From the IMG/VR virus record IMGVR_UViG_3300032313_000319, positions 1 through 59,564 of that record: 59,564 nt of DNA; one strand, 5' to 3'. The translations under genes and the position numbers were made by a program. Positions within the stretch are counted from its first letter, which is position 1. Every line of letters starts with the position of its first letter. The notes beneath the pieces are model-generated. The model saw only the letters and a list, made by a program, of their open reading frames with translations, was not told the DNA's origin and ran no database searches. Below are positions 31,255-58,254 of the stretch, one piece after another. The stretch comes from a virus.

Positions 31255-32046
31255 TTAGAACATCAGCACTCCGCTGAAGCCTGGGAAGAACGGTGGAAAG
31301 AATGGGAAGAATGGTGGGAAGTAAGGGAAGCTTGGCCCAAACCCTGGGAAGAACGGGAAGAACGGGAAGAACGGTGGGAAGTAAGGGAAGCTTGGTGGGA
31401 AGAATGGTGGGAAGAATGGTGGGAAAAATGGAGACAGTGTAGTCACGCTATTAGAGTTAGCAGAGTATACACCAACACCATTTGCGTTTTCAGCTCGGAT
31501 TTGGTATGTCTGAGCAGTTCCACCCTCTTGGGTAATGTTAGTAGTGCTTGCTGGAGCGTTTACAGTATTAGTCTTGTTATCAGAGGATGTCCAGCGATAT
31601 AGTGTAATTGACTTACCACCAGTTGCTGGAGCAGTCCAATCAAGCTTGTCCTGATTAGTCTGAGCAGTAGCTGTAGGTGCTGACATAGTTGCAGGAACTG
31701 TTGTAGCAGTTACGGTTACGCTAGCAGCAGTCCCTTGTGAGGTTCCAGCTGCATTTGTAGCAGTTACGCTAATTGTGTAAGTAACATTAGAAGCAAGGCC
31801 CTCTACAACAACAGGAGACGATGATCCTGTTGCGGTCCTAGTTGTCTGACCAACAGCAGTTGCAGTCACTGTATATGACGTAGCAGCAGGAGAAAGGGCT
31901 GGTAGCTCGAAAGCTACACTAGCTGCTCCGTTATTGAATGCTCTGTTGGTGCCTACGTCTGTAGCGACTACATTGATAGGTGCTAGTGGCTCTAGAAAGT
32001 CGTTTGATGCTTGAGACTTTCTACCTGATCTTTTTCCTGCTGCCAT
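31255..32046 (-). CDS. Fn3-domain virion protein with Phe/Pro-repeat tail
   Basis: The 263-residue protein has two fibronectin-III-like domains (about 23-115, with SYTVTATAVG and YTISVTATNAAGTSQG; and 118-205, with YQIRAENANGVGVYS). They are followed by about 55 residues composed almost only of Phe, Pro, Ser, Tyr and Gly (units such as FFPPFFPPSFPYFPPFFPFF). The DNA of the tail is a near 60-bp tandem repeat, purine-only on the plus strand. Fn3 domains are common on phage surfaces. The tail's role is unknown; its prolines are candidate substrates for the adjacent oxygenases. Confidence 0.8.
   Translation of the reverse strand: MAAGKRSGRKSQASNDFLEPLAPINVVATDVGTNRAFNNGAASVAFELPALSPAATSYTVTATAVGQTTRTATGSSSPVVVEGLASNVTYTISVTATNAAGTSQGTAASVTVTATTVPATMSAPTATAQTNQDKLDWTAPATGGKSITLYRWTSSDNKTNTVNAPASTTNITQEGGTAQTYQIRAENANGVGVYSANSNSVTTLSPFFPPFFPPFFPPSFPYFPPFFPFFPFFPGFGPSFPYFPPFFPFFPPFFPGFSGVLMF
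31262..31440. repeat. purine-rich tandem repeat coding the Phe/Pro tail
   Basis: GGGAAGAACGG/TGGGAAGAATGG-type units repeat through the region, and GGTGGGAAGTAAGGGAAGC occurs twice 60 nt apart (about 31314 and 31374). The low-complexity DNA could expand or contract by slippage. Confidence 0.8.
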
Positions 32047-41401: not shown

Positions 41402-42154
41402 TTAGCATATCCACATACCATCTATACACTCACATTCTAAGAATGGCCTATTTCCAATACATCCAGATGGTGTAGGTGTAGGAGTTGGAGTCGGAGTTGG
41501 TGTAGGAGTTGGTGTAGGCGTAGGAGTCGGTGTTGGTGTGGGCGTTGGTGTTGGAGTAGGTGACCCAGTATATTCTCCATAATTTACAGTTATACTTCCA
41601 GTTGCATTTGAATATCCAGACTTGCTAACCGTTACTTCAATTGTTACATCTGTATTTGGGGTTCCTTCCCTATAGTACTCTGGATAAGTGCTTTCAAAGC
41701 TGGTCCATTGTGGTGAAAATGTGACTCCTCCAAGGGCATCATAGGTATTATAATTAGTCAAATATACATTAACATACCTTTTTCCTCCAGCGGCATTTCC
41801 TGTTGATTCAAGCTGGAATGTTGGCGTTGGTAGGCTAGGTGCAGGAGTAGGAGTAGGGGTTGGTGTTGGTGTAGGGGTTGGTGTAGGTGTTGGTGTAGGG
41901 GTAGGGGTAACCACATAATTATACAAACTAAAAGCAACAGTTGTTTCATAGTCAACAAGCGTATTTGCTGATGGATTCTGAGAAGCAACAAGATTATCTA
42001 AAGACTGATTTGATGTATTAACATCAGGACCTAGTGAATATTCCAATCCAGAAGATTGTAGTAAAGATATAGCAGCAGATGACGATAGCCCAGAGATATC
42101 TGGAACCAGGACCATTCCTTTTGAAGATGCATAGTAGCCAAATGCATTTACCAT
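41402..42154 (-). CDS. PASTA-domain virion protein with two Pro-Thr linkers
   Basis: Residues about 15-80 look like a PASTA domain (MVLVPDISGLSSSAAISLLQ), a fold that binds peptidoglycan stems. A (PT)n linker, an Ig-like beta domain (about 115-195, KRYVNVYLTNYNT, ITVNYGEY), a second longer (PT)n linker and a C-terminal Cys-rich tip (CIGNRPFLECECIDGMWIC) follow. The long PT rods and terminal module suggest a host-binding fibre. The prolines are possible hydroxylation targets. Confidence 0.75.
   Translation of the reverse strand: MVNAFGYYASSKGMVLVPDISGLSSSAAISLLQSSGLEYSLGPDVNTSNQSLDNLVASQNPSANTLVDYETTVAFSLYNYVVTPTPTPTPTPTPTPTPTPTPTPAPSLPTPTFQLESTGNAAGGKRYVNVYLTNYNTYDALGGVTFSPQWTSFESTYPEYYREGTPNTDVTIEVTVSKSGYSNATGSITVNYGEYTGSPTPTPTPTPTPTPTPTPTPTPTPTPTPTPTPSGCIGNRPFLECECIDGMWIC
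41470..41560. repeat. hexanucleotide repeat coding (Pro-Thr)n, linker 2
   Basis: GTAGGA/GTTGGT-type hexamers encode alternating Pro and Thr on the minus strand. Confidence 0.85.
41835..41910. repeat. hexanucleotide repeat coding (Pro-Thr)n, linker 1
   Basis: GGTGTAGGGGTTGGT-type units encode the first Pro-Thr linker of the same protein. Confidence 0.85.
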
Positions 42155-46324: not shown

Positions 46325-46990
46325 ATGTCAATCTACCACCTTCATATACCCAGGACCAGCGGAGTATTTATCAGAGAGCAAATGATAAAGAAGACAGATA
46401 TGTCAATGTTTGTTGGACATAGAGAGCCAATTCCACAAAGCATGTCTGAGTATGAATATGTAAGTGGCCACTTTGCAACAAACTTTATTCAAGACTTTGA
46501 TACTAATTTTGCAATATATAGAAATCCAGTTGAACTTACATTTAGCTACATCAACTACATGAGGGACAATCTTTACAATCATCTATCTCTTGATGAGCTA
46601 ATAGAAGAATATGCGAAGACAGACAAGATCAAAAATTTTGTAAACATGAACTCTAAGTTTTTGACTGGAACAATGGATGTTTCTAAATATAACGAAATGA
46701 TAACAGACTTAAAAGAAGTTGCAGAATCTGGGTGGTATGTTGAAACAAAATGCAATACATTAGATATGTTTGTAGATATTATACAAAAAAATAATACATA
46801 TCTTGTAGATTATTCTGATAACAAAAAATATGAAAAGATATCTGAGCTTTACAAAGTTAACTACAACGATATTAAGATTAATAAGTCATCTGAAATTGAG
46901 GATGCCACAACTTCTAAATACTTCGAATTAATAACAGAATTAAACTCATTTGACTTGGAGGTGTATGAGTACCTTAAGGAACAAGCGTGA
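46325..46990 (+). CDS. sulfotransferase-like protein
   Basis: The 221-residue protein begins with YHLHIPRTSGVFIREQ, which matches the PAPS 5'-phosphosulfate loop of carbohydrate sulfotransferases (LHIPKTAG-type). It continues with FAIYRNPVELTFSYINYM, matching the 3'-phosphate-binding RDPxxRxxS region. Its role may be to sulfate host or virion glycans. The ATG at 46325 is chosen from the -10 spacing and because the loop begins six residues later. It is overlapped by the next gene. Confidence 0.78.
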   Translation: MSIYHLHIPRTSGVFIREQMIKKTDMSMFVGHREPIPQSMSEYEYVSGHFATNFIQDFDTNFAIYRNPVELTFSYINYMRDNLYNHLSLDELIEEYAKTDKIKNFVNMNSKFLTGTMDVSKYNEMITDLKEVAESGWYVETKCNTLDMFVDIIQKNNTYLVDYSDNKKYEKISELYKVNYNDIKINKSSEIEDATTSKYFELITELNSFDLEVYEYLKEQA

Positions 46991-47564
46991 GCCATGGAAC
47001 TTTGAAGATTTTGGCGAGGTAGAGGTATCAAGCATTCAAGATGAAGTCATTTCGTATTATAACGAATGGCTAGTTGATACTACTAGGCAAGACACATTCC
47101 AGACACATAAAGATACCTTCGCAATTCAGCTAACAGCCTTAGACTATGCTCATGGAATTGGCATGCCAGGAGATTGCATTACGACTAAAAAGCTTAATAA
47201 CGAATCTGCAAAGATTGAGCTTGATCAACTCATAAATAAAGTTGAGCAACTTGCTGCAGGAAAATTAATTCGTGCAGAGTTTATTAGCCTAAAGCCAAAA
47301 AGTCGAATCCGTCCACATAAGGATAGATCGGATCTGCTGTATTTGTCTAGAAGATTCCATGTTCCAATCAAGACAAATCCATATGTTACATTTTCTGCAG
47401 GAGCAGATGTTAGGCACCTATACGCTGGAAGACTGTATGAACTAAATAATATAAACTACCATGGTGTAAAGAATGATGGTAACGAAAATAGAATCCATCT
47501 GATTCTTGATGTGCTACCAGAACAATATCTCGAAGGGATAAGGTTTATCGATGAGACTGAATGA
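46965..47564 (+). CDS. aspartyl/asparaginyl hydroxylase-like 2OG oxygenase (9)
   Basis: The 199-residue protein fits the Asp/Asn beta-hydroxylase family: IRPHKDRSD (H118-x-D120), RRFHVPIKTNPYVTF, then LNNINYHGVKNDGNENRIHL (distal H166, R176 at +10). The start is the ATG at 46965 with GGAGG 3 nt upstream, inside the end of the sulfotransferase gene; starts further down are possible. It is a second hydroxylase type besides the eight prolyl-type genes. Confidence 0.8.
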   Translation: MSTLRNKREPWNFEDFGEVEVSSIQDEVISYYNEWLVDTTRQDTFQTHKDTFAIQLTALDYAHGIGMPGDCITTKKLNNESAKIELDQLINKVEQLAAGKLIRAEFISLKPKSRIRPHKDRSDLLYLSRRFHVPIKTNPYVTFSAGADVRHLYAGRLYELNNINYHGVKNDGNENRIHLILDVLPEQYLEGIRFIDETE

Positions 47565-48826: not shown

Positions 48827-48848
48827 TGTCTGCCAATACTGATAGAGT
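48827..48848 (+). promoter_or_regulatory. TGTC-box promoter 1 (weak)
   Basis: TGTCTG, 10 nt, TAGAGT. It lacks the ACCCC spacer but keeps the spacing and the AGAAAGAAGG ribosome site of this class. Confidence 0.45.
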
Positions 48849-48874
48849 ATGACTATACAGAAAGAAGGAAACAA

Positions 48875-49045
48875 ATGCTAGTAACAATCAGAAACAACGA
48901 CAACACTGAAACCACCTTTGGCTTCGACCCTGAGCACAAGGCAGAGGCTATTGGCTTCTACACCAAGTTGTATTGGAACAGTGCCATTCAGGGATACCGC
49001 ATTCAGTTTGCAGATGGCTCTATCTTCAACATTGGAGCCAACTAA
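48875..49045 (+). CDS. 56-residue hypothetical protein
   Basis: The ATG lies behind AGAAAGAAGG. The product (MLVTIRNNDNTETTFGFDPE..., YRIQFADGSIFNIGAN) is a small beta protein. It heads a four-gene run coupled by TAATG/TAAATG junctions. Confidence 0.6.
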   Translation: MLVTIRNNDNTETTFGFDPEHKAEAIGFYTKLYWNSAIQGYRIQFADGSIFNIGAN

Positions 49046-49116
49046 TGACTACTGAAGAACTAGAATACCTAATTGAACTAATTGACATAATGCTAATGGA
49101 TGAGGAGACTAACTAA
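49045..49116 (+). CDS. 23-residue acidic helical peptide
   Basis: It starts at a TAATG overlap (MTTEELEYLIELIDIMLMDE). A paralog is at 51301-51411 (SISELEELIYKIDLMLSED). Coupling at both ends plus the paralog supports a real gene. Confidence 0.55.
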   Translation: MTTEELEYLIELIDIMLMDEETN

Positions 49117-49184
49117 TGCTAGTAGACATTCTGCTTTGGGTAGCCGTTACCTTCATGGGTCTAGCAATGTTTAGTGCTAAGTAA
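49116..49184 (+). CDS. 22-residue membrane peptide
   Basis: It starts at a TAATG overlap; MLVDILLWVAVTFMGLAMF is one hydrophobic helix. A similar tiny membrane protein occurs in the paralogous run at 51414-51524. Confidence 0.5.
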   Translation: MLVDILLWVAVTFMGLAMFSAK

Positions 49185-49304
49185 ATGACTAGAGTAGCGA
49201 TATCAGTAACAGGTGCCCTGTTTGTTGCTTACCTGTATGTCAAGGTTCTAATGGCAGGATATACAATGACGATCCCATTCCTTGATATTGTAGTTTCTAT
49301 ATAG
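49185..49304 (+). CDS. 39-residue membrane peptide
   Basis: The ATG follows the previous stop directly. The product has a hydrophobic helix (VAISVTGALFVAYLYVKVLM). Function unknown. Confidence 0.5.
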   Translation: MTRVAISVTGALFVAYLYVKVLMAGYTMTIPFLDIVVSI

Positions 49305-49336
49305 ATACGGCGTGTCGCTTGACATCTACCCTGGAA

Positions 49337-49350
49337 GGGGCTCGGGCCCC
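49337..49350. repeat. CTCGGG/GGGCCC element 1
   Basis: GGGGCTCGGGCCCC, self-complementary; CTACGA follows 20 nt on. Confidence 0.6.
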
Positions 49351-49400
49351 AAATGTAACAGAATGATAACTATCTACGAAACACGCTAAAAAAGTCCCAT

Positions 49401-49430
49401 AAATGTCAGACCCCTATGGTTAGATAATAG
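49401..49430 (+). promoter_or_regulatory. TGTC-box promoter 2
   Basis: AAATGTCAGACCCC, then TTAGAT/TAGATA about 10 nt after TGTCAG. Confidence 0.6.
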
Positions 49431-49450
49431 TAGTTAGAAAGGATACACAA

Positions 49451-49615
49451 ATGGATACTCTCAGATACAAGCAGTTGGACTCTCTAAACCTAGTTGAGGT
49501 AAAGAGAGAGTTGGCATTCTTTTTGGAACACGCCCAGCGTGCGAATTGGGATGTGTCTGATGAAACTATCGGATACATGAACCAACTAGATAGTGTTATC
49601 AAAGCGTTATCTTAG
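49451..49615 (+). CDS. 54-residue hypothetical protein
   Basis: Start behind AGAAAGGA. MDTLRYKQLDSLNLVEVKRE resembles the start of the 50596 gene (LDILSLSEVEREVD), so the two are likely paralogs. Mostly helical. Confidence 0.6.
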   Translation: MDTLRYKQLDSLNLVEVKRELAFFLEHAQRANWDVSDETIGYMNQLDSVIKALS

Positions 49616-49634
49616 ACGGCGTGTCACAAACTAA

Positions 49635-49660
49635 AAATGTCGTACCCCCTCTGTAAATTT
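49635..49660 (+). promoter_or_regulatory. TGTC-box promoter 3
   Basis: TGTCGT, ACCCCCTCTG, TAAATT. Confidence 0.55.
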
Positions 49661-49678
49661 ATAGTAGTTGGAAAAGGA

Positions 49679-49724
49679 ATGAGCCTCAGCAAATAATCCA
49701 GAAATGGTGAGCCTGAGCAAATAA
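49679..49724 (+). promoter_or_regulatory. duplicated leader micro-ORF (MSLSK, twice)
   Basis: Two five-codon frames, ATGAGCCTCAGCAAATAA (49679-49696) and GTGAGCCTGAGCAAATAA (49707-49724), lie in the leader of the next gene. They encode the same peptide with one synonymous change, suggesting selection on the peptide or on the RNA. Confidence 0.35.
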
Positions 49725-49757
49725 GTCCCCCAGCGTTGTATTAGAAAGGATAAATAA

Positions 49758-49964
49758 ATGTTTAGAGTAACAACAAGTGGATACCTAGTAGAGTGTGACT
49801 CTTGTGGTAATGAGGAGATCGCTTCCAATCTCCGTATGGCTAAGTCAGCCTTTGACTTCCATGAGTGTTCAGACAAGCCTAACAAGGTGTCTGACTACAC
49901 TTTGGTAGAGGCTAAAGACCCTATTGAGTTGGTCAAGCCTATGTTTAGTACTAACTGGTACTAG
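49758..49964 (+). CDS. 68-residue zinc-binding-like protein
   Basis: The product has VECDSCGNEEIASN then FHECSDKP, a CxxC...HxC pattern. AGAAAGGA precedes the ATG. It resembles small actinophage zinc-ribbon proteins of unknown role. Confidence 0.65.
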   Translation: MFRVTTSGYLVECDSCGNEEIASNLRMAKSAFDFHECSDKPNKVSDYTLVEAKDPIELVKPMFSTNWY

Positions 49965-49995
49965 ATGTAGTGGGTGTACTCCTGGTCTACCCCCA

Positions 49996-50020
49996 GATCT
50001 AGGCTCGGGGGCCCCTAGAT
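49996..50020. repeat. CTCGGG/GGGCCC element 2
   Basis: CTCGGGGGCCCC inside an ATCTAGG/CCTAGAT hairpin; no TTACGA follows. Confidence 0.6.
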
Positions 50021-50117
50021 GTAGTATGCATACCCTGTTAAGACACTATATATAGATCCCCCAGAAAGTTTATAACAGATTTATAACAGATAGGGTAAAA
50101 GGGGTGTTTTGCTACCT

Positions 50118-50143
50118 AAAATGTCAGACCCTACCTGTAGATT
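50118..50143 (+). promoter_or_regulatory. TGTC-box promoter 4
   Basis: TGTCAG, ACCCTACCTG, TAGATT. Confidence 0.6.
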
Positions 50144-50172
50144 TATAGCAGTTAGAAAGAAAGGTATCCCCA

Positions 50173-50382
50173 ATGACCACAATGTTCCGCAAGACCACCT
50201 GCAACGGATGCGGTATGTCTCAGACCACCAATGTCTCTTACCGCCTAGACAAGAAGTTGTGGGAGACCACTCACACTCTTGGCGTGTGCCGTCAGCGTAA
50301 GGCACTACTTACCAGAGAACTAGACTTCTCCAAGCCTGGAGCCAGCCTAAGAAACCTAGAATTGCTAAACAGCCTAAACTAA
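50173..50382 (+). CDS. 69-residue zinc-binding-like protein
   Basis: The product has KTTCNGCGMSQTTN near the N-terminus and a later Cys (LGVCRQRKAL). AGAAAGAAAGG precedes the ATG at a short distance. Function unknown. Confidence 0.6.
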   Translation: MTTMFRKTTCNGCGMSQTTNVSYRLDKKLWETTHTLGVCRQRKALLTRELDFSKPGASLRNLELLNSLN

Positions 50383-50406
50383 AATGTCAGACCCCTATGC
50401 TAGATT
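50381..50406 (+). promoter_or_regulatory. TGTC-box promoter 5
   Basis: AAAATGTCAG, ACCCCTATGC, TAGATT, overlapping the stop of the preceding gene. Confidence 0.65.
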
Positions 50407-50431
50407 TTAGATAACTCAGAAAGAAGGAAAA

Positions 50432-50596
50432 ATGATTCAGTCAGTAATCACAGATGACACCAAGGGTATCCTAGTAGCAAAGTTGCAGGGTGTCCTAGAG
50501 CGTGACCTAACCGCTATGGAAGAGGCTATGGTTGAGTATACTCTCACCCAAGTCAGACTAGGCTTAGTTGACCTAGGCTTACAGGAGGTAAAGTAA
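50432..50596 (+). CDS. 54-residue helical protein
   Basis: AGAAAGAAGG precedes the ATG. The product is amphipathic helical (VLERDLTAMEEAMVEYTLTQ). Coupled by TAATG to the next gene. No family recognised. Confidence 0.6.
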   Translation: MIQSVITDDTKGILVAKLQGVLERDLTAMEEAMVEYTLTQVRLGLVDLGLQEVK

Positions 50597-50763
50597 TGGA
50601 GAACTTTCGCAAGTTAGACATTCTCTCACTCTCAGAGGTTGAGCGTGAGGTTGACATAATGATAGAAATTATCGGTGATAGGATTCCTAGTGATGAGGAA
50701 TACAAGCAGGTATCAGAACTAATCAAACTAGCCAACTCGCTTGGCACAAAAAGAAAATGGTGA
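50596..50763 (+). CDS. 55-residue helical protein
   Basis: It starts at a TAATG overlap. LDILSLSEVEREVDIMIEII is similar to the 49451 product. Function unknown. Confidence 0.6.
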   Translation: MENFRKLDILSLSEVEREVDIMIEIIGDRIPSDEEYKQVSELIKLANSLGTKRKW

Positions 50764-50766
50764 TGT

Positions 50767-50964
50767 ATGCACCCTAGGGAATTGCCAGGTATCAGAATCA
50801 CATACCGCCAAGCAGGCAAAAGAATAGATGACGCTTTTGTTTTTGCACCTACTCACGCTTGCACACTTTGCAAGGTAGGCGTTCAGGTCTGGAATGCAGA
50901 TAGATTCTGGGCTAGGCATAAAGACTGCATACCGCTTACCATACAAGAGTGGGTTGGGGTATAG
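50767..50964 (+). CDS. 65-residue zinc-finger-like protein
   Basis: The product carries HACTLCKVGVQVW and later RHKDC, a CxxC...HxxxC pattern. It starts 3 nt after the preceding stop. Possible small DNA- or protein-binding factor. Confidence 0.6.
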   Translation: MHPRELPGIRITYRQAGKRIDDAFVFAPTHACTLCKVGVQVWNADRFWARHKDCIPLTIQEWVGV

Positions 50965-50986
50965 TATTCCAATAATGGAATGGATC

Positions 50987-51001
50987 GGCCTCGGGGGCCC
51001 C
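50987..51001. repeat. CTCGGG/GGGCCC element 3
   Basis: GGCCTCGGGGGCCCC; no TTACGA follows. Confidence 0.6.
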
Positions 51002-51091
51002 TACATCTAGAGGCTATAATCATTTAAGACACCACATCTAGGATCCCCAGAATGTTATCATTCTGTTATAAAAATGTGGCGTGTGCTACTC

Positions 51092-51117
51092 AAAATGTCA
51101 GACCCCTATGTTAGATT
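51092..51117 (+). promoter_or_regulatory. TGTC-box promoter 6
   Basis: AAAATGTCAG, ACCCCTATGT, TAGATT. Confidence 0.65.
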
Positions 51118-51142
51118 TTAGGTAAGTAGAAAGAAGGTAAAA

Positions 51143-51301
51143 ATGTCAGAACAGATTTGCGTGTTTTGTATGAACTTGGTGAACGACTATGTTTGCCACG
51201 AATGTAACGACTACAAGGGGCTAATGCCACTTGACGAGGCTGAGAAGTATCTTGGCGAGGACTTTCCAGAGGAATACAAAGTAGCGGATTGGATTAGATA
51301 A
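51143..51301 (+). CDS. 52-residue zinc-ribbon protein
   Basis: MSEQICVFCMNLVNDYVCHE with a further CxxC (CHEC) forms a small zinc site; the remainder is acidic. AGAAAGAAGG precedes the ATG; coupled by TAATG. Confidence 0.6.
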   Translation: MSEQICVFCMNLVNDYVCHECNDYKGLMPLDEAEKYLGEDFPEEYKVADWIR

Positions 51302-51411
51302 TGAGCATCTCAGAACTAGAGGAACTAATCTACAAAATTGACCTAATGCTATCTGAGGACATAATGTCTGAGGGTATTAGTAATCTATTCTCAACCAAAG
51401 AAAGCGAGTAA
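51301..51411 (+). CDS. 36-residue acidic helical peptide
   Basis: It starts at TAATG; SISELEELIYKIDLMLSED is paralogous to the 49045 peptide. Confidence 0.55.
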   Translation: MSISELEELIYKIDLMLSEDIMSEGISNLFSTKESE

Positions 51412-51413
51412 CA

Positions 51414-51524
51414 ATGATTTTTTACAACGGCTTCAACCTACTAGTTGACATAATCCTAGTTTCAGTTGCGGTGTTTGTCACCTATCGCCTAACTAGGAGA
51501 AACAGCCACAAGGCTCCGTTCTAA
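51414..51524 (+). CDS. 36-residue membrane peptide
   Basis: One transmembrane helix (LLVDIILVSVAVFVTY) then a basic tail (RLTRRNSHKAPF), the usual inside-positive layout. It follows the acidic peptide as in the run at 49045-49184. Confidence 0.5.
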   Translation: MIFYNGFNLLVDIILVSVAVFVTYRLTRRNSHKAPF

Positions 51525-51564
51525 ACGACACGCCGAAGCCAGGACTTGACAAACCTGAGCTTTT

Positions 51565-51578
51565 GGCCTCGGGCCCCC
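51565..51578. repeat. CTCGGG/GGGCCC element 4
   Basis: GGCCTCGGGCCCCC; TTACGAAAC follows about 16 nt on. Confidence 0.6.
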
Positions 51579-51635
51579 AACCAAGATCATAAGTAGTTTA
51601 CGAAACAATTTAAGAAACTCCCAGAAATCTCCCCT

Positions 51636-51661
51636 AAAATGTCAGATAGGTCTGTTATACT
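51636..51661 (+). promoter_or_regulatory. TGTC-box promoter 7 (leaderless)
   Basis: TGTCAG, ATAGGTCTGT, TATACT, with the ATG only 6 nt later. The one member of this class that combines the TGTC box with a leaderless start. Confidence 0.6.
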
Positions 51662-51667
51662 TCAGGT

Positions 51668-51835
51668 ATGAAGAAGTTAGGTAAAGCAAATCAAGCAAGA
51701 CGCAAGGCTGAGTCACAGGCTCTATTCCTTGAGATGATGAAGAATCCTCACCTTGTAGTTACCCCCCAGAAATTCAAGGGCACACGCCAGAGCAACACTA
51801 GCAAGGCTATTAGAGAGAGTAGGGATAATGGGTAA
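51668..51835 (+). CDS. 55-residue basic protein
   Basis: A Lys/Arg-rich product (MKKLGKANQARRKAESQALF; KFKGTRQSNTSKAIRES), probably nucleic-acid binding. Leaderless ATG; overlaps the next gene by 8 nt. Confidence 0.6.
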   Translation: MKKLGKANQARRKAESQALFLEMMKNPHLVVTPQKFKGTRQSNTSKAIRESRDNG

Positions 51836-51965
51836 GTATAACTGTTCTAACTGTCAGAGGCTTCTACGCCCAGAGAAGTTTTACATTCAAGGTATCAATA
51901 ATGTCTGTACCCCCTGTTATGCTGTAATGGTTCAGCACCCCTCAGCAAGAAAGTTGGTAAAGTAA
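51828..51965 (+). CDS. 45-residue zinc-ribbon protein
   Basis: KYNCSNCQRLLRPEKFYIQG then VCTPCYAVM gives a CxxC-CxxC ribbon. Coupled by TAATG to the next gene. Confidence 0.6.
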   Translation: MGKYNCSNCQRLLRPEKFYIQGINNVCTPCYAVMVQHPSARKLVK

Positions 51966-52159
51966 TGAGTAAGTATCCTGTAACTGTTCAGCTATCAGGT
52001 AACGATGGCAATGCCTTTGCAATAATGGGAGCAGTAAAGTCTGCCCTAAAAAAGGCTGGGGCAACTAATGAAGAGGTTGACAAGTATCTGGCAGACTCAA
52101 TGTCTGGAGACTATGACAACCTGTTACGTGTAGCAATGCAATGGGTGAATGTAAGATAA
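51965..52159 (+). CDS. conserved actinophage-type small protein
   Basis: The 64-residue product opens with YPVTVQLSGNDGNAFAIMG and contains MSGDYDNLLRVAMQWV. Small proteins of this pattern occur in many actinophages and other tailed phages, function unknown. TAATG start. Confidence 0.75.
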   Translation: MSKYPVTVQLSGNDGNAFAIMGAVKSALKKAGATNEEVDKYLADSMSGDYDNLLRVAMQWVNVR

Positions 52160-52182
52160 ATGTCAGACCCCTGTGGTAATCT
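52157..52182 (+). promoter_or_regulatory. TGTC-box promoter 8
   Basis: TGTCAG, ACCCCTGTGG, TAATCT, overlapping the upstream stop. Confidence 0.6.
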
Positions 52183-52206
52183 TTAACTAACTTAGAAAGG
52201 ATACAG

Positions 52207-52380
52207 ATGAACAGCGACAAGGTATTGGAATACGCAAAAGAGCAAGTAAACGGCGGAAGCCCTTATGCTTTTGCTTTTGGTATGGCTTGGGCTTCCCTAA
52301 GCAAAACCGCCCAAAAGGAACTAACCAAATACGCAGAACAGCAACTAGCCCTAATCAAGGCAGAAAGAGGGGAGAACTAA
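52207..52380 (+). CDS. 57-residue hypothetical protein
   Basis: The product (MNSDKVLEYAKEQVNGGSPY, then AFGMAWASLSKTAQKEL) is helical with a Gly turn. AGAAAGGA precedes the ATG; coupled by TAATG. Confidence 0.6.
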   Translation: MNSDKVLEYAKEQVNGGSPYAFAFGMAWASLSKTAQKELTKYAEQQLALIKAERGEN

Positions 52381-52661
52381 TGGGTTCACTTCAGGCAAGA
52401 GAGATGGCAGAAATGCTATCTATGGAAGACGCTATCGCTTGGCACTTGCAGAGCAACCACTATCCACCTGTGCCACTATCTATGGTTGAGCCTTGTATTG
52501 AGGCTATCAAGAACGCTCTTGCTGGTGACTGGTGGAAGCCTGTTGAGTTGCCTAACCCTGTCAAGTATAAGGGAAGCACTCACGCTCCAACTTCCGCTAT
52601 CCTTGAGCAACACCACCTTGCCCCTTGGCTAGAGCTTGATGAGGAGGGGCTTGAGGACTAA
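52380..52661 (+). CDS. conserved actinophage-type hypothetical protein
   Basis: The start is the TAATG ATG at 52380; an in-frame start at 52287 lies inside the previous gene. The 93-residue protein has AIAWHLQSNHYPPVPLSMVE and CIEAIKNAL, a pattern seen in many actinophage genomes, without known role. Confidence 0.7.
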   Translation: MGSLQAREMAEMLSMEDAIAWHLQSNHYPPVPLSMVEPCIEAIKNALAGDWWKPVELPNPVKYKGSTHAPTSAILEQHHLAPWLELDEEGLED

Positions 52662-52674
52662 CCTCAGCCCTTCT

Positions 52675-52687
52675 GGGCCCCGAGCCC
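52675..52687. repeat. CTCGGG/GGGCCC element 5 (inverted)
   Basis: GGGCCCCGAGCCC, reversed relative to elements 1-4; TTACGATTA follows. Confidence 0.55.
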
Positions 52688-52723
52688 TGATCACGATCCT
52701 ATAACAGGTTACGATTACGTACT

Positions 52724-52749
52724 AAAATGTCCTACCCCTAGGCTATACT
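52724..52749 (+). promoter_or_regulatory. TGTC-box promoter 9
   Basis: TGTCCT, ACCCCTAGGC, TATACT. Confidence 0.65.
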
Positions 52750-52774
52750 TTAGTTAGTTAGAGAGGATACCCCA

Positions 52775-53491
52775 ATGCTTATTAGGTCTAAAGATAGGAA
52801 AGTAACTAATGCAGTATCTCCAAATGGTAAAACGCCGACTATTGCGAACACGTTTGGGCTACCTTCTGGTAAGGCTTATTCCTGCCCTGGAGCCACATCT
52901 GTATGCGAGAAAATCTGTTACGCTGGCAAACTCGAAAAAGTCTACAAGGGTGTAAAGGATGTTCTAGTCAACAACTGGAACCAACTAAAAGACGCTAAGT
53001 ATGAGACTATGGTTTCACTACTTGATGAAATGATTATTAGTTTCAAGTCTGACTGTGACAAGCGTAATGCAGACAAGCTATTCCGAATTCACTGGGATGG
53101 CGACTTCTTCAATGTCACTTACACTATAGCTTGGGCTACTGTAATCAAAAAGCATTCTGATGTTCAGTTCTGGGTATACACTCGCAGCGACTTTGCGGTT
53201 CCAATTCTAAAGGGTATCGCTAATCTATCGCTATACTTTTCTACTGATGATGACAACTGGCAGCTGGCAAGCAACCTAAAGACACTTCATGATGTAAAGC
53301 TTGCTTATCTTGCTAACAACTTTGCAATGGGTAAAGAGCGTATGTTGTCTATCACGCCTAAGTCTGCAATTCCATGCCCTGAGAATGCTAAGAAACTACC
53401 ACTGATTAGTGACAAGGGTTCCGCCTGTGTTACCTGTGGGCAGTGTGTGTTTGAGCGTAATGACATCCTGTTCAGTGCTAGTAAAAAGTAA
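52775..53491 (+). CDS. GP88-family protein
   Basis: The 238-residue protein resembles the actinophage gp88 family: TFGLPSGKAYSCPGATSVCE, EKICYAGKLEKVYKGV, then RIHWDGDFFNVTYTIAWATV and a C-terminal CVTCGQCVFERND. Conserved Cys residues suggest metal binding; the biochemical role is unknown. AGAGAGGA precedes the ATG. Confidence 0.8.
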   Translation: MLIRSKDRKVTNAVSPNGKTPTIANTFGLPSGKAYSCPGATSVCEKICYAGKLEKVYKGVKDVLVNNWNQLKDAKYETMVSLLDEMIISFKSDCDKRNADKLFRIHWDGDFFNVTYTIAWATVIKKHSDVQFWVYTRSDFAVPILKGIANLSLYFSTDDDNWQLASNLKTLHDVKLAYLANNFAMGKERMLSITPKSAIPCPENAKKLPLISDKGSACVTCGQCVFERNDILFSASKK

Positions 53492-53520
53492 TTGACAGCA
53501 TTCTGGATAAGGAATATAAT
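53492..53520 (+). promoter_or_regulatory. consensus promoter TTGACA-N17-TATAAT
   Basis: Perfect hexamers at 53492-53497 and 53515-53520, spaced 17 nt. It drives a GTG microORF and a structured downstream RNA. Confidence 0.75.
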
Positions 53521-53525
53521 ATATT

Positions 53526-53597
53526 GTGGATAATATAGGAATCATAATTGTGCTTCTCTTAATGGCTATAACACTAGTGTTAACCAATAAGAAATAA
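53526..53597 (+). CDS. 23-residue membrane microprotein (GTG, leaderless)
   Basis: The GTG lies 5 nt after the -10. The product (MDNIGIIIVLLLMAITLVL, then TNKK) is one membrane helix with a basic end. It may be real, or the promoter may serve only the structured RNA behind it. Confidence 0.45.
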   Translation: MDNIGIIIVLLLMAITLVLTNKK

Positions 53598-53611
53598 ACT
53601 CATAGGGGAAT

Positions 53612-53705
53612 ATGAGACGGTCCGCTCCTTTCTAACTAACTGACATGCGGACCACGTCCTGGCCATGACGTAAAACTGGCCACCTCAACGCCCGAGGGCA
53701 GATCA
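53612..53705 (+). ncRNA. structured region downstream of consensus promoter
   Basis: GGTCCGC (53619) pairs with GCGGACC (53647) and TGGCCA (53660) with TGGCCA (53677), with a GC-rich CGCCCGAGGGC element at the end. May be a small RNA, a 3' leader or a terminator cluster; no frame longer than the microORF is present. Confidence 0.4.
53690..53699. repeat. CTCGGG element 6 (inverted, short)
   Basis: CGCCCGAGGGC; TTACGATTA follows about 22 nt on. Confidence 0.5.
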
Positions 53706-53735
53706 CAATTTGATAACCAATTACGATTAAGATAT

Positions 53736-53761
53736 AAAATGTCCCACCCCCAGAGTATAAT
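53736..53761 (+). promoter_or_regulatory. TGTC-box promoter 10
   Basis: TGTCCC, ACCCCCAGAG, TATAAT. Confidence 0.65.
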
Positions 53762-53787
53762 GGTCTTATCAGTTAGAGAGGACAGTA

Positions 53788-53910
53788 ATGGACGAGCAAG
53801 CAGCAGAGATTAGAGAAAACCTAGCAGAATACTACGCTAACCCAGAAGAGTATTCTCTTGAGGACTTTGAGGACATCTTCCAAGATCGTGACCCGTTTGA
53901 GTTTCTATAA
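53788..53910 (+). CDS. 40-residue acidic protein
   Basis: MDEQAAEIRENLAEYYANPE then EEYSLEDFEDIFQDRDPFEF; strongly acidic and helical. AGAGAGGA precedes the ATG. Function unknown; could mimic nucleic acid. Confidence 0.55.
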   Translation: MDEQAAEIRENLAEYYANPEEYSLEDFEDIFQDRDPFEFL

Positions 53911-53933
53911 ATGTCATACCCCCAGTTTATAAT
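53908..53933 (+). promoter_or_regulatory. TGTC-box promoter 11
   Basis: TGTCAT, ACCCCCAGTT, TATAAT, directly after the preceding stop. Confidence 0.65.
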
Positions 53934-53956
53934 AATCTAAACAGAAAGAAGGAATA

Positions 53957-54508
53957 ATGGGAACTAGAGGACTAACTAAGGTTGTTTACAAGGGTGAGAC
54001 TATTGTTGCACAGTATGGACAATGGGACCACTACCCAGAGGGACAGGGTGTTACCTTGTTTTACGCTCTGCAAGACCCTGATGTGGTAAAGCGTTTTATT
54101 GAGAAGATTCCACAGATTTACTACCCCAGCGACTCTGATGTAGAAGCAATGTGCAAGCCATTTGAGGATGGTTCTTCGGCAGGTATGATGACCTTTGAGT
54201 CTGGTGATAAGTTTGCAAAGAAGTATCCAACTCTAACCAGAAATACTGGTGGAGAGATTTTCAGGGTAATCGCTGACTGGGATGACTCACCTATCCCTAT
54301 TGTCAGGGACTTGGACTTTGAGAATGACGAGTTGTTCTGTGAGGGTCTTTACACTATCAACTTGGACCAAGAGTTCTTTCACACCCAGTTTAGCAAGTAT
54401 AAGGGTTCTTGGGACATCTCACTCTTGGTTGGCTTTGAGTCTCTAAGGGAGATGAAGGGTCCAGATGACTACCTTGAGAGTTGCAAGGATTCTCAATTAG
54501 TTAGGTAA
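53957..54508 (+). CDS. conserved actinophage-type MGTRGL protein
   Basis: The 183-residue protein opens with MGTRGLTKVVYKGETIVAQY and GQWDHYPEGQGVTLFYALQD, a hallmark of a common actinophage family of unknown function. AGAAAGAAGG precedes the ATG. Confidence 0.75.
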   Translation: MGTRGLTKVVYKGETIVAQYGQWDHYPEGQGVTLFYALQDPDVVKRFIEKIPQIYYPSDSDVEAMCKPFEDGSSAGMMTFESGDKFAKKYPTLTRNTGGEIFRVIADWDDSPIPIVRDLDFENDELFCEGLYTINLDQEFFHTQFSKYKGSWDISLLVGFESLREMKGPDDYLESCKDSQLVR

Positions 54509-54545
54509 CACGCTACCCCCAGGACTTGACATCTTGGGGGCTAGT

Positions 54546-54558
54546 GCCTCGGGGGCCC
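54546..54558. repeat. CTCGGG/GGGCCC element 7
   Basis: GCCTCGGGGGCCC; TTACGAAAC follows about 17 nt on. Confidence 0.6.
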
Positions 54559-54631
54559 ACAGGATCTTTGTCAATTTACGAAACCTACAAAAAATCCCCC
54601 AAAACTTTGTAGAAAAACTTTGCCCAAATGC

Positions 54632-54660
54632 TTGACATTGACTTACTTTTCTGGGACAAT
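54632..54660 (+). promoter_or_regulatory. sigma70-type promoter
   Basis: TTGACA (54632), 17 nt, GACAAT (54655-54660), followed by TTGAGTATCA, a stretch also found at the 59160 promoter. The roughly 62-nt leader has a GACCT/AGGTC hairpin at 54697-54713. Confidence 0.65.
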
Positions 54661-54728
54661 TGAGTATCACCAAACGGGGATACATAAATCAAAACAGACC
54701 TTGATAAGAGGTCGGAATAGGAAGCAAA

Positions 54729-54875
54729 ATGTCAAACCTAACTGTTGGCTCACAGTTCACCACCGCTAAGTCTGGCGTGTCTGGTGTTATTCAGGAAGTA
54801 GTAGCAAACAAGAACGGCTCTTTCCGTGTCCGTCTTGATGTTGCTGGTCAGCCTCGCTGGACTACTGTAAAGTAA
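54729..54875 (+). CDS. 48-residue small beta protein
   Basis: MSNLTVGSQFTTAKSGVSGV then SFRVRLDVAGQPRWTTVK has the look of a small beta-barrel. Small proteins of this kind recur in actinophages; a nucleic-acid role is possible. Starts behind AGGAAGC. Confidence 0.6.
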   Translation: MSNLTVGSQFTTAKSGVSGVIQEVVANKNGSFRVRLDVAGQPRWTTVK

Positions 54876-54876
54876 T

Positions 54877-54928
54877 GTAAGACTTGGGGGGGTAGCGTTT
54901 CTTATCCTTTCTCTACCCTCCCACTTAC
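54877..54928 (+). terminator. long hairpin after the 48-residue gene
   Basis: GTAAG...GGGGTAG pairs with CTACCC...CTTAC around a T/C-rich loop, right after the stop and just before the next TGTC-box promoter. Confidence 0.7.
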
Positions 54929-54929
54929 T

Positions 54930-54955
54930 AAAATGTCACACCCCACCCTTACAAT
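54930..54955 (+). promoter_or_regulatory. TGTC-box promoter 12
   Basis: TGTCAC, ACCCCACCCT, TACAAT. Confidence 0.65.
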
Positions 54956-54982
54956 AGAACTACCCTGAAAGAAAGAAGACTA

Positions 54983-55204
54983 ATGTCTGGCAAGATTGTT
55001 GCTCTAAAGAAAAACCAACGCCTAACCGTTCGCACAGAGATTTGGAACACCAAGTCTGGCGAGGGTATCAAGGCTGTTGTCCGTAACCCAAACGGCACTT
55101 TTGATGGTGCTACCAACCAGACCCGTTTCTTGGCTATGCCAGAACCAAAGGTCATTGTCAGGACTATTACTGAACCTCGCAAAAAGGTATTCGGTATTTT
55201 CTAG
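54983..55204 (+). CDS. 73-residue basic beta protein
   Basis: The product (LKKNQRLTVRTEIWNTKSGE, then AVVRNPNGTFDGATN) is basic and may bind nucleic acid. It resembles the 54729 product in style. AAAGAAAGAAG precedes the ATG. Confidence 0.6.
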   Translation: MSGKIVALKKNQRLTVRTEIWNTKSGEGIKAVVRNPNGTFDGATNQTRFLAMPEPKVIVRTITEPRKKVFGIF

Positions 55205-55236
55205 GCAGATGTGCTGGGTATCACAATAAACTACCC

Positions 55237-55262
55237 AAAATGTCACACCCCTCCCCTATAAT
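55237..55262 (+). promoter_or_regulatory. TGTC-box promoter 13
   Basis: TGTCAC, ACCCCTCCCC, TATAAT. Confidence 0.65.
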
Positions 55263-55291
55263 GTAATTACCCTAAAAGAAAGCAGAAACAA

Positions 55292-55747
55292 ATGGCTAGA
55301 ACCCTTTCCGTAAAAATCCCAACCGCAACTCTAATCGCTGACATTGAGGCAACTATTGCCAAGATTGACGCTGATGTTGAGGCATACCCTGAGAAGGTAA
55401 AGCAGTATGAGGCAGACCTAGCAAACTACAAGACTAGCGTTGTCAAGTTTGCTACTGACTACATTACCGCCAACGCTGACAAGATTGGCTTTGACTATGA
55501 CAGCACCATTCGTCTAGTTCAGAACCACTACTCTCAGAACAAGTTTGAGATTGAGTTGGACATTTCGGTTATTGCTAACTTCCCTGAGAAGCCTGTAAAG
55601 CCAAGCCAGCCAAACCAGAACGAGCACTTTGGCAGGGAATACACCACTCGCAAGGCAATTCTTGAGAAGAACCTTCGTATCCTAAAGATGACCTCGCAAG
55701 AGGAAGTGAACGCAAGTTCCTACTCCTCTGTGATTGACCTAATCTAA
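55292..55747 (+). CDS. 151-residue coiled-coil protein
   Basis: Residues about 15-60 form a coiled coil (LIADIEATIAKIDADVEAYP, YEADLANYKTSVVKFATD). An acidic strand region and a Pro/Gln/Asn linker follow (KPVKPSQPNQNEHFG). No family recognised. It is followed directly by a structured RNA candidate. Confidence 0.6.
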   Translation: MARTLSVKIPTATLIADIEATIAKIDADVEAYPEKVKQYEADLANYKTSVVKFATDYITANADKIGFDYDSTIRLVQNHYSQNKFEIELDISVIANFPEKPVKPSQPNQNEHFGREYTTRKAILEKNLRILKMTSQEEVNASSYSSVIDLI

Positions 55748-55748
55748 G

Positions 55749-55959
55749 GGAGATACACCTGAGTAAGTGGGTAAACTGCTCACCAAACTTCCAACTAACC
55801 TAGGAACGGTTGGCTGTGCTGATGGCTCTAACAGTAGTCAGATGAGCAAGACCTATTAGATGAACCGCAAGGACTCTAAGGGCAAGGATACCACCCTGCT
55901 ATCGGTTGAAGCATAGGTCAGAAATGATACTACCTGATGCCCTCGCTTGGGTGGTTTTT
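55749..55959 (+). ncRNA. structured RNA candidate with terminator
   Basis: About 210 gene-free nt between a CDS and the next cassette. Pairings: GAG..AGT/ACT..CTC (55761-55781), CCAAC/GTTGG (about 55791-55813), CTGA/TCAG (about 55819-55842), and GACCTAT...AACCG closing with CGGTT...ATAGGTC (55850-55919) over an inner AGGG/CCCT stem. It ends in a terminator hairpin with TTTTT (55932-55959). No tRNA or tmRNA features. Probably co-transcribed with the upstream gene. Confidence 0.55.
55932..55959 (+). terminator. terminator of the RNA candidate
   Basis: ACC..GCCC pairs with GGGTGGT around a TCGCTT loop, then TTTTT. Confidence 0.7.
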
Positions 55960-55974
55960 CCTTATCTGGATCCT

Positions 55975-55988
55975 GGCCCTCGGGGCCC
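55975..55988. repeat. CTCGGG/GGGCCC element 8
   Basis: GGCCCTCGGGGCCC; TTACGATGT follows about 16 nt on. Confidence 0.6.
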
Positions 55989-56038
55989 GTTACAAAATTG
56001 TTATTTACGATGTCCAATTATTTTTCCCTAGATTCTTT

Positions 56039-56064
56039 ACAATGTCAGACCTTCCCTGTATACT
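56039..56064 (+). promoter_or_regulatory. TGTC-box promoter 14
   Basis: TGTCAG, ACCTTCCCTG, TATACT. Confidence 0.6.
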
Positions 56065-56100
56065 TGTCCTATCAGTAATCCCTAACAGAAAGTAGCCCCT

Positions 56101-57093
56101 ATGGCACACGAACTAGAAACCGTAAACGGACAGACCGCTTTTGCTTCTTTGCGTGAACCTGCTTGGCATGGACTTGGAACCGTCTTCACTGAGGAAGTTT
56201 CCACAGCCGAAATGCTAAAGTTGGCACACCTAGACAATTGGAATGTCCGTCTTGAAGATGTAGCAATTCCAGAAGGCTTTGCCTCTGACCGTTCATTCTC
56301 TTTTGTTACCAGAACCAACCCATTCAACTCAGAACAGAATGATGTTCTTGGTGTTGTTGGTGAGCGTTATGTTCCGCTTCAGAATGAAGACCTATTTGAC
56401 TTTGGTGACCTAATGCTAGACGGCGGTGGTCGCTGGGAAACTGCTGGCTCTATCAAGGGTGGCAGACAAGTCTTTGGTTCTCTTGCTCTTGAGCGTGAAA
56501 CCGTTCTTGACCCTAATGGCGTGTCTGACAAGGTAAACACCTATCTTCTAATCAACACCTCTCATGACGGCTCAGTTGCTATTCAGGCTTCAATCACACC
56601 TGTGCGTGTTGTTTGTGCTAACACCTTGAACCTAGCCCTAAAGGGTAAGGCTAAGCAGTCTTTCAAGATTCGCCACACCTCTACCGCTTCTGGCAAGGTT
56701 GCTCAGGCTAGAGAGGCTCTTGGCTTGGCTAACCTATATATGAATGAGTTTGACAAAATGGCTCAGGAAATGATTAGCAAGGAAATCAACAAGGCTAAGT
56801 TTGATGAGATTGTTGCTCTTGCTTACCCTGCCCCTGAGAAAGACGCTAAGGGTTCATTCAAGAAATACAACGATAAGATTGACTTGATTCAGTCTATCTA
56901 TGTAGGTGACTACAACAAGACCATTGCTGGAACTGCTTGGGGTGCTTTCAATGCTCTGACTGAGCGTTTGGATTGGTATCGCTCTGGGCGTGGTGGTGAC
57001 AACGAGAGTATTCTCGCTGCTGCTTCTGGCTTTGACCCTGTGACTACTGCTGAGAAGAACCGCTTGCTTCAGTTGGTATTGGCTAACGCCTAG
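56101..57093 (+). CDS. DUF932 / phage-plasmid-like protein
   Basis: The 330-residue protein has the pattern of the DUF932 (phage/plasmid TIGR03299-type) family: REPAWHGLGTVFTEEVS, GERYVPLQNEDLFDFGD, QVFGSLALERET, TPVRVVCANTLNLALKGK. Members occur on plasmids and phages next to replication genes; activity unknown. AGAAAGTAG precedes the ATG. Confidence 0.85.
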   Translation: MAHELETVNGQTAFASLREPAWHGLGTVFTEEVSTAEMLKLAHLDNWNVRLEDVAIPEGFASDRSFSFVTRTNPFNSEQNDVLGVVGERYVPLQNEDLFDFGDLMLDGGGRWETAGSIKGGRQVFGSLALERETVLDPNGVSDKVNTYLLINTSHDGSVAIQASITPVRVVCANTLNLALKGKAKQSFKIRHTSTASGKVAQAREALGLANLYMNEFDKMAQEMISKEINKAKFDEIVALAYPAPEKDAKGSFKKYNDKIDLIQSIYVGDYNKTIAGTAWGAFNALTERLDWYRSGRGGDNESILAAASGFDPVTTAEKNRLLQLVLANA

Positions 57094-57152
57094 TCTATTC
57101 CTTCCTGGGTATGAAGTAAAACTGCCCAACAAACATATTCCAAGATCGTTAT

Positions 57153-57164
57153 GGGCCTCGGGCC
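57153..57164. repeat. CTCGGG/GGGCCC element 9
   Basis: GGGCCTCGGGCC inside a TATGG/CCATA hairpin; TTACGAAAC follows about 24 nt on. Confidence 0.6.
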
Positions 57165-57224
57165 ATAACTACTTAGACAAATACATTTACGAAACTAATT
57201 AAGAAACCCCCAAATTGTTTCCCT

Positions 57225-57250
57225 AAAATGTCTGACCCCCACCCTATACT
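57225..57250 (+). promoter_or_regulatory. TGTC-box promoter 15
   Basis: TGTCTG, ACCCCCACCC, TATACT. Confidence 0.65.
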
Positions 57251-57853: not shown

Positions 57854-58254
57854 TGTCATACCCTAATGCTATAGTGGACACTATGAATGAGACTATTGTA
57901 TGCCCCAACCACAATGGCAGTTTTGACTGCAACCCCTTTTGCCGTATCTGTGAGGGTAATCAAGAAACTACCCTTACCAACCTAATAGAACAAGCAAGCA
58001 CTGTTGCTTATGACGGTTGCCACAAAATCTATCTCAATATGGATAGTGTCCAGACTGATAAGATGATTAGTTATGGCTATTCAAATATCGTTGGTGGAAC
58101 TGCTTGGGAAAAGGAATATGCCGTATGGAATTGGTATGAAGATTCCTGTGGGCTAAGATTCATTGACGCTGTATTCACTAATGACGATGACACTGATAAG
58201 TTTGTTATTGTTGTTCCACAATTCTTTGGAGAGGATGAAGATGTTACCGATTGA
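57853..58254 (+). CDS. 133-residue zinc-binding-like protein
   Basis: TAATG start. IVCPNHNGSFDCNPFCRICE is a Cys/His cluster near the N-terminus, then a helical/beta domain ending in an acidic tail (FFGEDEDVTD). Function unknown. Confidence 0.65.
   Translation: MSYPNAIVDTMNETIVCPNHNGSFDCNPFCRICEGNQETTLTNLIEQASTVAYDGCHKIYLNMDSVQTDKMISYGYSNIVGGTAWEKEYAVWNWYEDSCGLRFIDAVFTNDDDTDKFVIVVPQFFGEDEDVTD

Follow-up and report, generated by a model that had tools for sequence, protein, structure and literature searches.

The DNA analysed here, called the window, is the whole of the IMG/VR virus record IMGVR_UViG_3300032313_000319. The record is 59,564 bases in length with a GC content of 41%, is classed as linear, and is probably a fragment. 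Its structural genes (tape measure, portal) run leftward and are related to those of Streptomyces BE-type phages, and the right end of the window is a rightward block of small genes. This block carries an array of sites composed of a TGTC box and a −10 hexamer, which resemble the promoters of the actinobacterial DNA-damage activator PafBC. A preliminary description of the sequence had counted 15 such sites, and all 15 were found, all on the plus strand and within 48.8-57.3 kb. The spacer begins with ACCCC in 11 of them, as had been described, and the sites do precede genes or small cassettes. The claim of a fixed 10-nucleotide gap between TGTCNN and the −10 hexamer is true of 14 sites, in which TANNNT lies 16 nucleotides after the T of TGTC, while the site at 49404 has TTAGAT there.

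I performed a count of TGTCNN-N10-TANNNT in the window. It occurs 21 times on the plus strand and 6 times on the minus strand, and other spacings occur 2-12 times on the plus strand. For a position weight matrix (PWM), 315 distinct sites were taken from viral contigs other than this one, and the three closest relatives were excluded from this training set. Above 12 bits, the PWM matched 19 sites on the plus strand and none on the minus strand, compared with 0.17 per strand in shuffled sequence. Two good sites, at 51902 and 57854, are additional to the original list. The matches at 51365 and 58284 lie inside a repeated coding peptide, 'IMSEG', and were set aside as probably coincidental; thus, about 17 sites remain.

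All of these sites are on the plus strand, and their PWM scores are given in bits. The first (48827-48848, 12.4) is a weak match, TGTCTG-N10-TAGAGT, and the second, TGTCAGACCCCTATGG TTAGAT (49404-49425, 23.4), is the one whose −10 is imperfect at that spacing. They are followed by TGTCGTACCCCCTCTG TAAATT (49638-49659, 12.2), TGTCAGACCCTACCTG TAGATT (50122-50143, 20.9), TGTCAGACCCCTATGC TAGATT (50385-50406, 28.6), and TGTCAGACCCCTATGT TAGATT (51096-51117, 26.0). At 51640-51661 lies TGTCAGATAGGTCTGT TATACT (17.3), and the start codon at 51668 is 6 nucleotides past its −10. The site TGTCTGTACCCCCTGT TATGCT (51902-51923, 22.2) is kept in the relative L069 and its next gene begins at 51965; TGTCAGACCCCTGTGG TAATCT (52161-52182, 27.2) comes after it. 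The site at 52728-52749 (22.9) precedes a GP88-family gene (52775-53491, plus strand; Pfam PF17338, 4.9e-50). Next are TGTCCCACCCCCAGAG TATAAT (53740-53761, 17.5) and the promoters of three genes: 53912-53933 (21.3) for the gene 53957-54508; 54934-54955 (18.9) for the gene 54983-55204, with the box and the −10 kept in L036 and L069; and 55241-55262 (23.8) for the gene 55292-55747, whose family has such a site on its 5′ side in 32 loci. The site at 56043-56064 (24.3) serves a DUF932 gene (56101-57093, plus strand; Pfam DUF932), a family found in 31 loci. The last two are TGTCTGACCCCCACCC TATACT (57229-57250, 22.8) and TGTCATACCCTAATGC TATAGT (57854-57875, 24.0), the latter with an in-frame ATG at 57883, 7 nucleotides past the −10. 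A −35 element is absent from the window sites. At 16-19 nucleotides, TTGACA is matched at three of six positions or fewer in all but 56043, the only site with a −35-like hexamer (TTTACA, five of six).

Is this array common in other phages? Searching IMG/VR for the complete motif yielded at least 120 stretches, many with 4-27 copies on one strand. Since single matches are often expected by chance in such a scan, the analysis was confined to loci with four or more copies; among the matches listed, an array like that of the window occurs in about 65 stretches. In the long records with sites listed, the sites are mostly inside one stretch of about 7-12 kb, and the proteins encoded downstream have a median length of 65 amino acids, with DUF932 and GP88 among the recurring families. 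In these relatives, the TGTC-to-TANNNT spacing is N12 in 671 cases against about 30-110 at other distances, save 190 at N7, a peak that seems to come from overlap with the internal CCCCTA of the motif. TANNNT is at exactly +16 for 284 of the 287 boxes of the form AATGTCAG[ATC]SS. A PWM refined on the relatives has TGTC at 96-97% per base, A4 at 79%, G5 at 88%, A or T at position 6, C or G at position 7, G14 at 77% (an extended −10), and TA..T at 96-97%. The dominant strand has 629 matches to it, and the opposite strand has 27. A motif scattered within genes in both orientations, which had been named beforehand as speaking against a promoter family, is therefore not what was found, either here or in the window with its 19 against 0. 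Two linked subtypes of the −26 box were seen: among 474 distinct sites of loci L003-L122, TGTCAGACC occurs 190 times and TGTCAGTGG 89 times, and the mixed forms are rarer (p ~1e-29).

The distance to the coding sequence suggested that the sites are promoters. At 47 of 430 sites, the start codon of an open frame lies 6 or 7 nucleotides past the −10, compared with 0-2 cases at neighbouring distances, and the remaining sites mostly have leaders of 22-40 nucleotides. Two window genes, starting at 51668 and 57883, are of the leaderless type. Such a peak is expected from mRNAs beginning at the ATG and thus puts the transcription start where a sigma-A promoter would put it. The preliminary description had predicted start sites 6-8 nucleotides past the −10, and this computational proxy agrees with it.

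It is conceivable that these are plain sigma-A promoters with an extended −10, in which the TGTCAG box fits polymerase contacts and no extra factor is needed. TGn is indeed common in the lineage, as the G at position 14 indicates. However, the box is as informative as the −10 in the refined PWM, and many window sites have no TGn before the −10. In addition, the classic layout of the TTGACA-N17-TATAAT type is found at other promoters of this phage (47869, 53492, 54632, 59160, and 59504 in the window). This account is therefore very unlikely. A repressor site resembling the stoperators of cluster A mycobacteriophages had also been proposed, and this proposal did not hold up. A cluster A stoperator is a 13-bp consensus, GGTGGNTGTCAAG, independent of any −10. 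These stoperators and the phage sites are alike in being many, asymmetric, TGTC-containing, and in a single orientation, and about 17% of the relatives' sites also have a −35-like hexamer, as would suit an operator or stoperator inside ordinary promoters. On the other hand, the phage boxes have another consensus and are never free-standing, being tied to a −10 at a fixed distance (284 of 287), and in the window promoters there is no −35 that could be repressed. Nor is the cluster A consensus clearly in excess in the window, which has 8 matches at two or fewer mismatches against 3.9 expected. That the box is a repressor operator inside ordinary promoters is most unlikely.

The sites do resemble a known class of promoter. 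The RecA-independent DNA-damage promoter (RecA-NDp) of mycobacteria and other actinobacteria has the form tTGTCRgtg-8nt-TAnnnT (PMC5656591). Its regulator PafBC is a heterodimer of WYL-domain proteins; PafB binds the −26 motif, PafC binds domain 4 of sigma-A, single-stranded DNA (ssDNA) activates the complex, and the polymerase is the housekeeping one (PMC11804915). The phage sites have a TGTCRG-type box exactly 16 nucleotides above a TAnnnT −10, and the window sites do without a −35.

The host of the contig is inferred to be a Planktophila-type actinobacterium from the 41% GC, the presence of WhiB genes in relatives, the relationship to Streptomyces phages, and three freshwater-actinobacterial matches. 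These three came from a pattern scan of a genome collection, whose matches were mostly in scattered phyla, as by chance; the three actinobacterial ones were used, and one match of the scan was to a Candidatus Planktophila genome. WYL genes were found in all 26 genomes of the Planktophila GTDB family, most of which have two adjacent genes for proteins of about 315 amino acids. The pair of genome G044 matches PafB (7p5x_AY, 6.7e-37) and PafC (7p5x_AX, 5.7e-28), so that both subunits are encoded in the likely host family. The recognition-helix arginines R44 and R48 discussed for PafBC (PMC6789036) are conserved as RMFER in this pair. The phage PWM matches the recA upstream regions of 7 of 24 host genomes (p<0.01 each). 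One of them, L175, has TGTCGGACCCCCTCTATATACT next to a LexA-box-like repeat; this sequence is of the ACC subtype, which is frequent in the window. Most other recA upstream regions have CGTCAGTGG-N7-TACCTT with the same spacing. In the 26 host genomes, TGTCAGNSS-N7-TANNNT occurs 88 times compared with 21 for the reversed control. Thus, the element does lie on the 5′ side of DNA-repair genes in this family; besides recA, some host sites precede genes for a DnaE-type polymerase, DUF6504, and DEDD-exonuclease/UvrC-like proteins, and others are not at repair genes.

A few other features of these host sequences were observed. GGCGTGTC occurs at 49309 and 49618 in the phage array and also in many recA upstream regions of the Planktophila family (L175-L198), near the LexA-box-like repeat. 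A long conserved leader, CCAGAGCGGTTCC ... CCGTCAGTGG..TTCCGTACCTTCTGGACC, was found in the recA upstream regions L176, L182-L186, L189, and L192-L196; it may represent a structured RNA or a variant of the PafBC promoter. In L138, which comes from a freshwater actinobacterial metagenome-assembled genome, a SAM-IV riboswitch (Rfam RF00634, 78 bits; L138:6855-6970, minus strand) lies just 3′ of TGTCAG-N10-TATCTT. L133 and L156 have elements resembling it that received no Rfam call. The L138 assembly is titled Bifidobacterium breve; its isolate name looks freshwater actinobacterial, and it is probably misnamed.

Who reads the phage sites? A WYL protein of the phages' own, and with it a phage-coded PafBC, was sought in 29 phage records, 12 of them of 96-116 kb, and none was found, with positive controls. 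Sigma70 region 2 (Sigma70_r2) was likewise absent from 21 phage records, with positive controls, and promoters for a phage-coded sigma factor were therefore rejected. The MotA family (PF09114) had no match in 18 records and the single-subunit phage RNA polymerase (PF00940) had no match, in searches run without a positive control. The pattern was not in excess over the control in 16 cultured actinophages, so its general use by such phages was rejected. Inheritance from Streptomyces BE phages was rejected as well, since homologous genes in Samisti12 and LukeCage, those of the DUF932 gene included, are under ordinary −35/−10 promoters (TAGACA/TTGACA-N17/18-TAGACT). The sequenced isolates that infect Planktophila belong to another phage family, of 39 kb (PMC10202952). 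With neither a phage WYL protein nor sigma70 region 2, and with no counterpart in cultured phages, in the records examined, host PafBC is the simplest account.

A phage-coded activator without a WYL domain, such as WhiB or a small unknown protein, could also read TGTCAG and redirect sigma-A as MotA does, the likeness of the sites to PafBC promoters being convergence or mimicry. WhiB is present in 14 of 21 phage records, which supports an actinobacterial host and also supplies one phage-coded candidate; the genes of the array are mostly of unknown function, and the ACC subtype prevails in the window while hosts mostly have TGTCAGTG. WhiB proteins act at the −35, and no −26 box is known for them. 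Moreover, the phage sites match the host-type element in sequence, position, and spacing together, and the ACC subtype is itself present in the recA promoter of L175. The lack of a Sigma70_r2 match, and of a MotA-family match in the search without a positive control, does not favour this explanation either, and I consider it unlikely.

Some other features of the window may be mentioned. A palindromic CTCGGG/GGGCCC element lies between cassettes, on the 5′ side of the next promoter, at 49341, 50004, 50990, 51568, 54548, 55979, and 57157, and also at 52675; it is possibly a terminator or an insertion boundary. Short tandem repeats with periods of 12-60 bp occur in leftward genes of the structural region (31280-31431, 36459-36681, and 41469-41562). 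In the interval that separates the structural genes from the promoter array, an aspartyl/asparaginyl beta-hydroxylase-like gene adjoins a sulfotransferase-like gene (46950-47564).

Taken together, the sites are quite likely PafBC-class hybrid sigma-A promoters read by the PafBC of the host. In the proposed mechanism, the −26 box (TGTCAG followed by ACC or TGG) and the −10, without a −35, would drive the block of small phage genes. The host heterodimer would read the sites with the helix-turn-helix of PafB on the −26 box and PafC holding sigma-A domain 4. Single-stranded DNA from phage replication or from the breakdown of the host chromosome would bind the WYL domains and turn the complex on. 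I lean slightly towards the view that a lytic lineage has put a large gene block under the ssDNA-sensing PafBC of its host, so that its own replication or its attack on the host chromosome triggers the block. The carriers are uncultured phages of actinobacteria, probably from fresh water, with about 10-30 small genes behind such promoters.

Several points weigh against this reading. The binding and activation of the phage sites by PafBC, the ssDNA signal, and the timing are inferred, as is the host. TGTC and the spacing hold throughout the window, while R and G at positions 4-5 are present in part of the sites and the 'tg' at positions 6-7 is mostly AC; the boxes are mostly TGTCAGACCC, TGTCACACC, or TGTCATACC rather than the textbook TGTCRGTG. 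The −35-like hexamers of the relatives imply that an activator is not needed by all sites and that some are composite, and the WhiB genes leave a phage-coded candidate. Perfect sites are few in the host genomes and are outnumbered by the phage sites. None of the three freshwater-actinobacterial matches is at a repair gene, as one is 5′ of the SAM-IV riboswitch and two are 5′ of the similar-looking elements. Finally, the motif itself was used to fetch the relatives, so that how often it is counted in them depends on this selection, which has less effect on the fixed −10 spacing, the strand bias, and the leaderless peak.

If the reading is true, the array would be a phage regulon under an activator of the host's DNA-damage response, working by activation, unlike the LexA-type derepression of prophage induction. 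PafBC would gain a role in phage infection, and in hosts that appear to be among the commonest freshwater bacteria. Studies of sigma adaptation would have hundreds of naturally varied −26 elements to draw on, the lineage would have a simple sequence mark in metagenomes, and the reading of a host ssDNA alarm by a phage would be directly testable. The promoter class is known already, and a phage array of it is undescribed in the open-access literature searched.

The phage sites share with the PafBC/RecA-NDp promoters the TGTC box, the G at position 5, the 16-nucleotide step to TAnnnT, and a dispensable −35, and the class also sits on the 5′ side of recA in the likely host family. They differ in forming an array of about 10-30 copies on a phage, mostly before tiny genes of unknown function, in having the ACC subtype more commonly than TGG, and in an often extended −10. 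The preliminary description had compared them to the middle promoters of phage T4, where MotA, together with AsiA, acts at a box near −30. The kind of promoter was well chosen, as in both cases a box (here near −28) and a sigma-A-type −10 without a −35 let an activator redirect the housekeeping sigma factor. The named precedent was not, since the box and the spacing are of the PafBC type and the activator here is likely the host's own. The MotA box has a different sequence and lies about 5-6 nucleotides further upstream, with its consensus about 12 nucleotides above the −10, while the TGTCAG(ACC/TGG) box ends nearer to the −10. For the principle, the nearest precedent is that of cyanophage genes under the PhoBR system of their host (PMC10976474). 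There, phage genes are under a host stress regulator, as they would be here; PhoBR acts as a nutrient-response regulator on some genes, whereas the proposed regulator of the present sites is an activator of the DNA-damage response that would serve an entire array.

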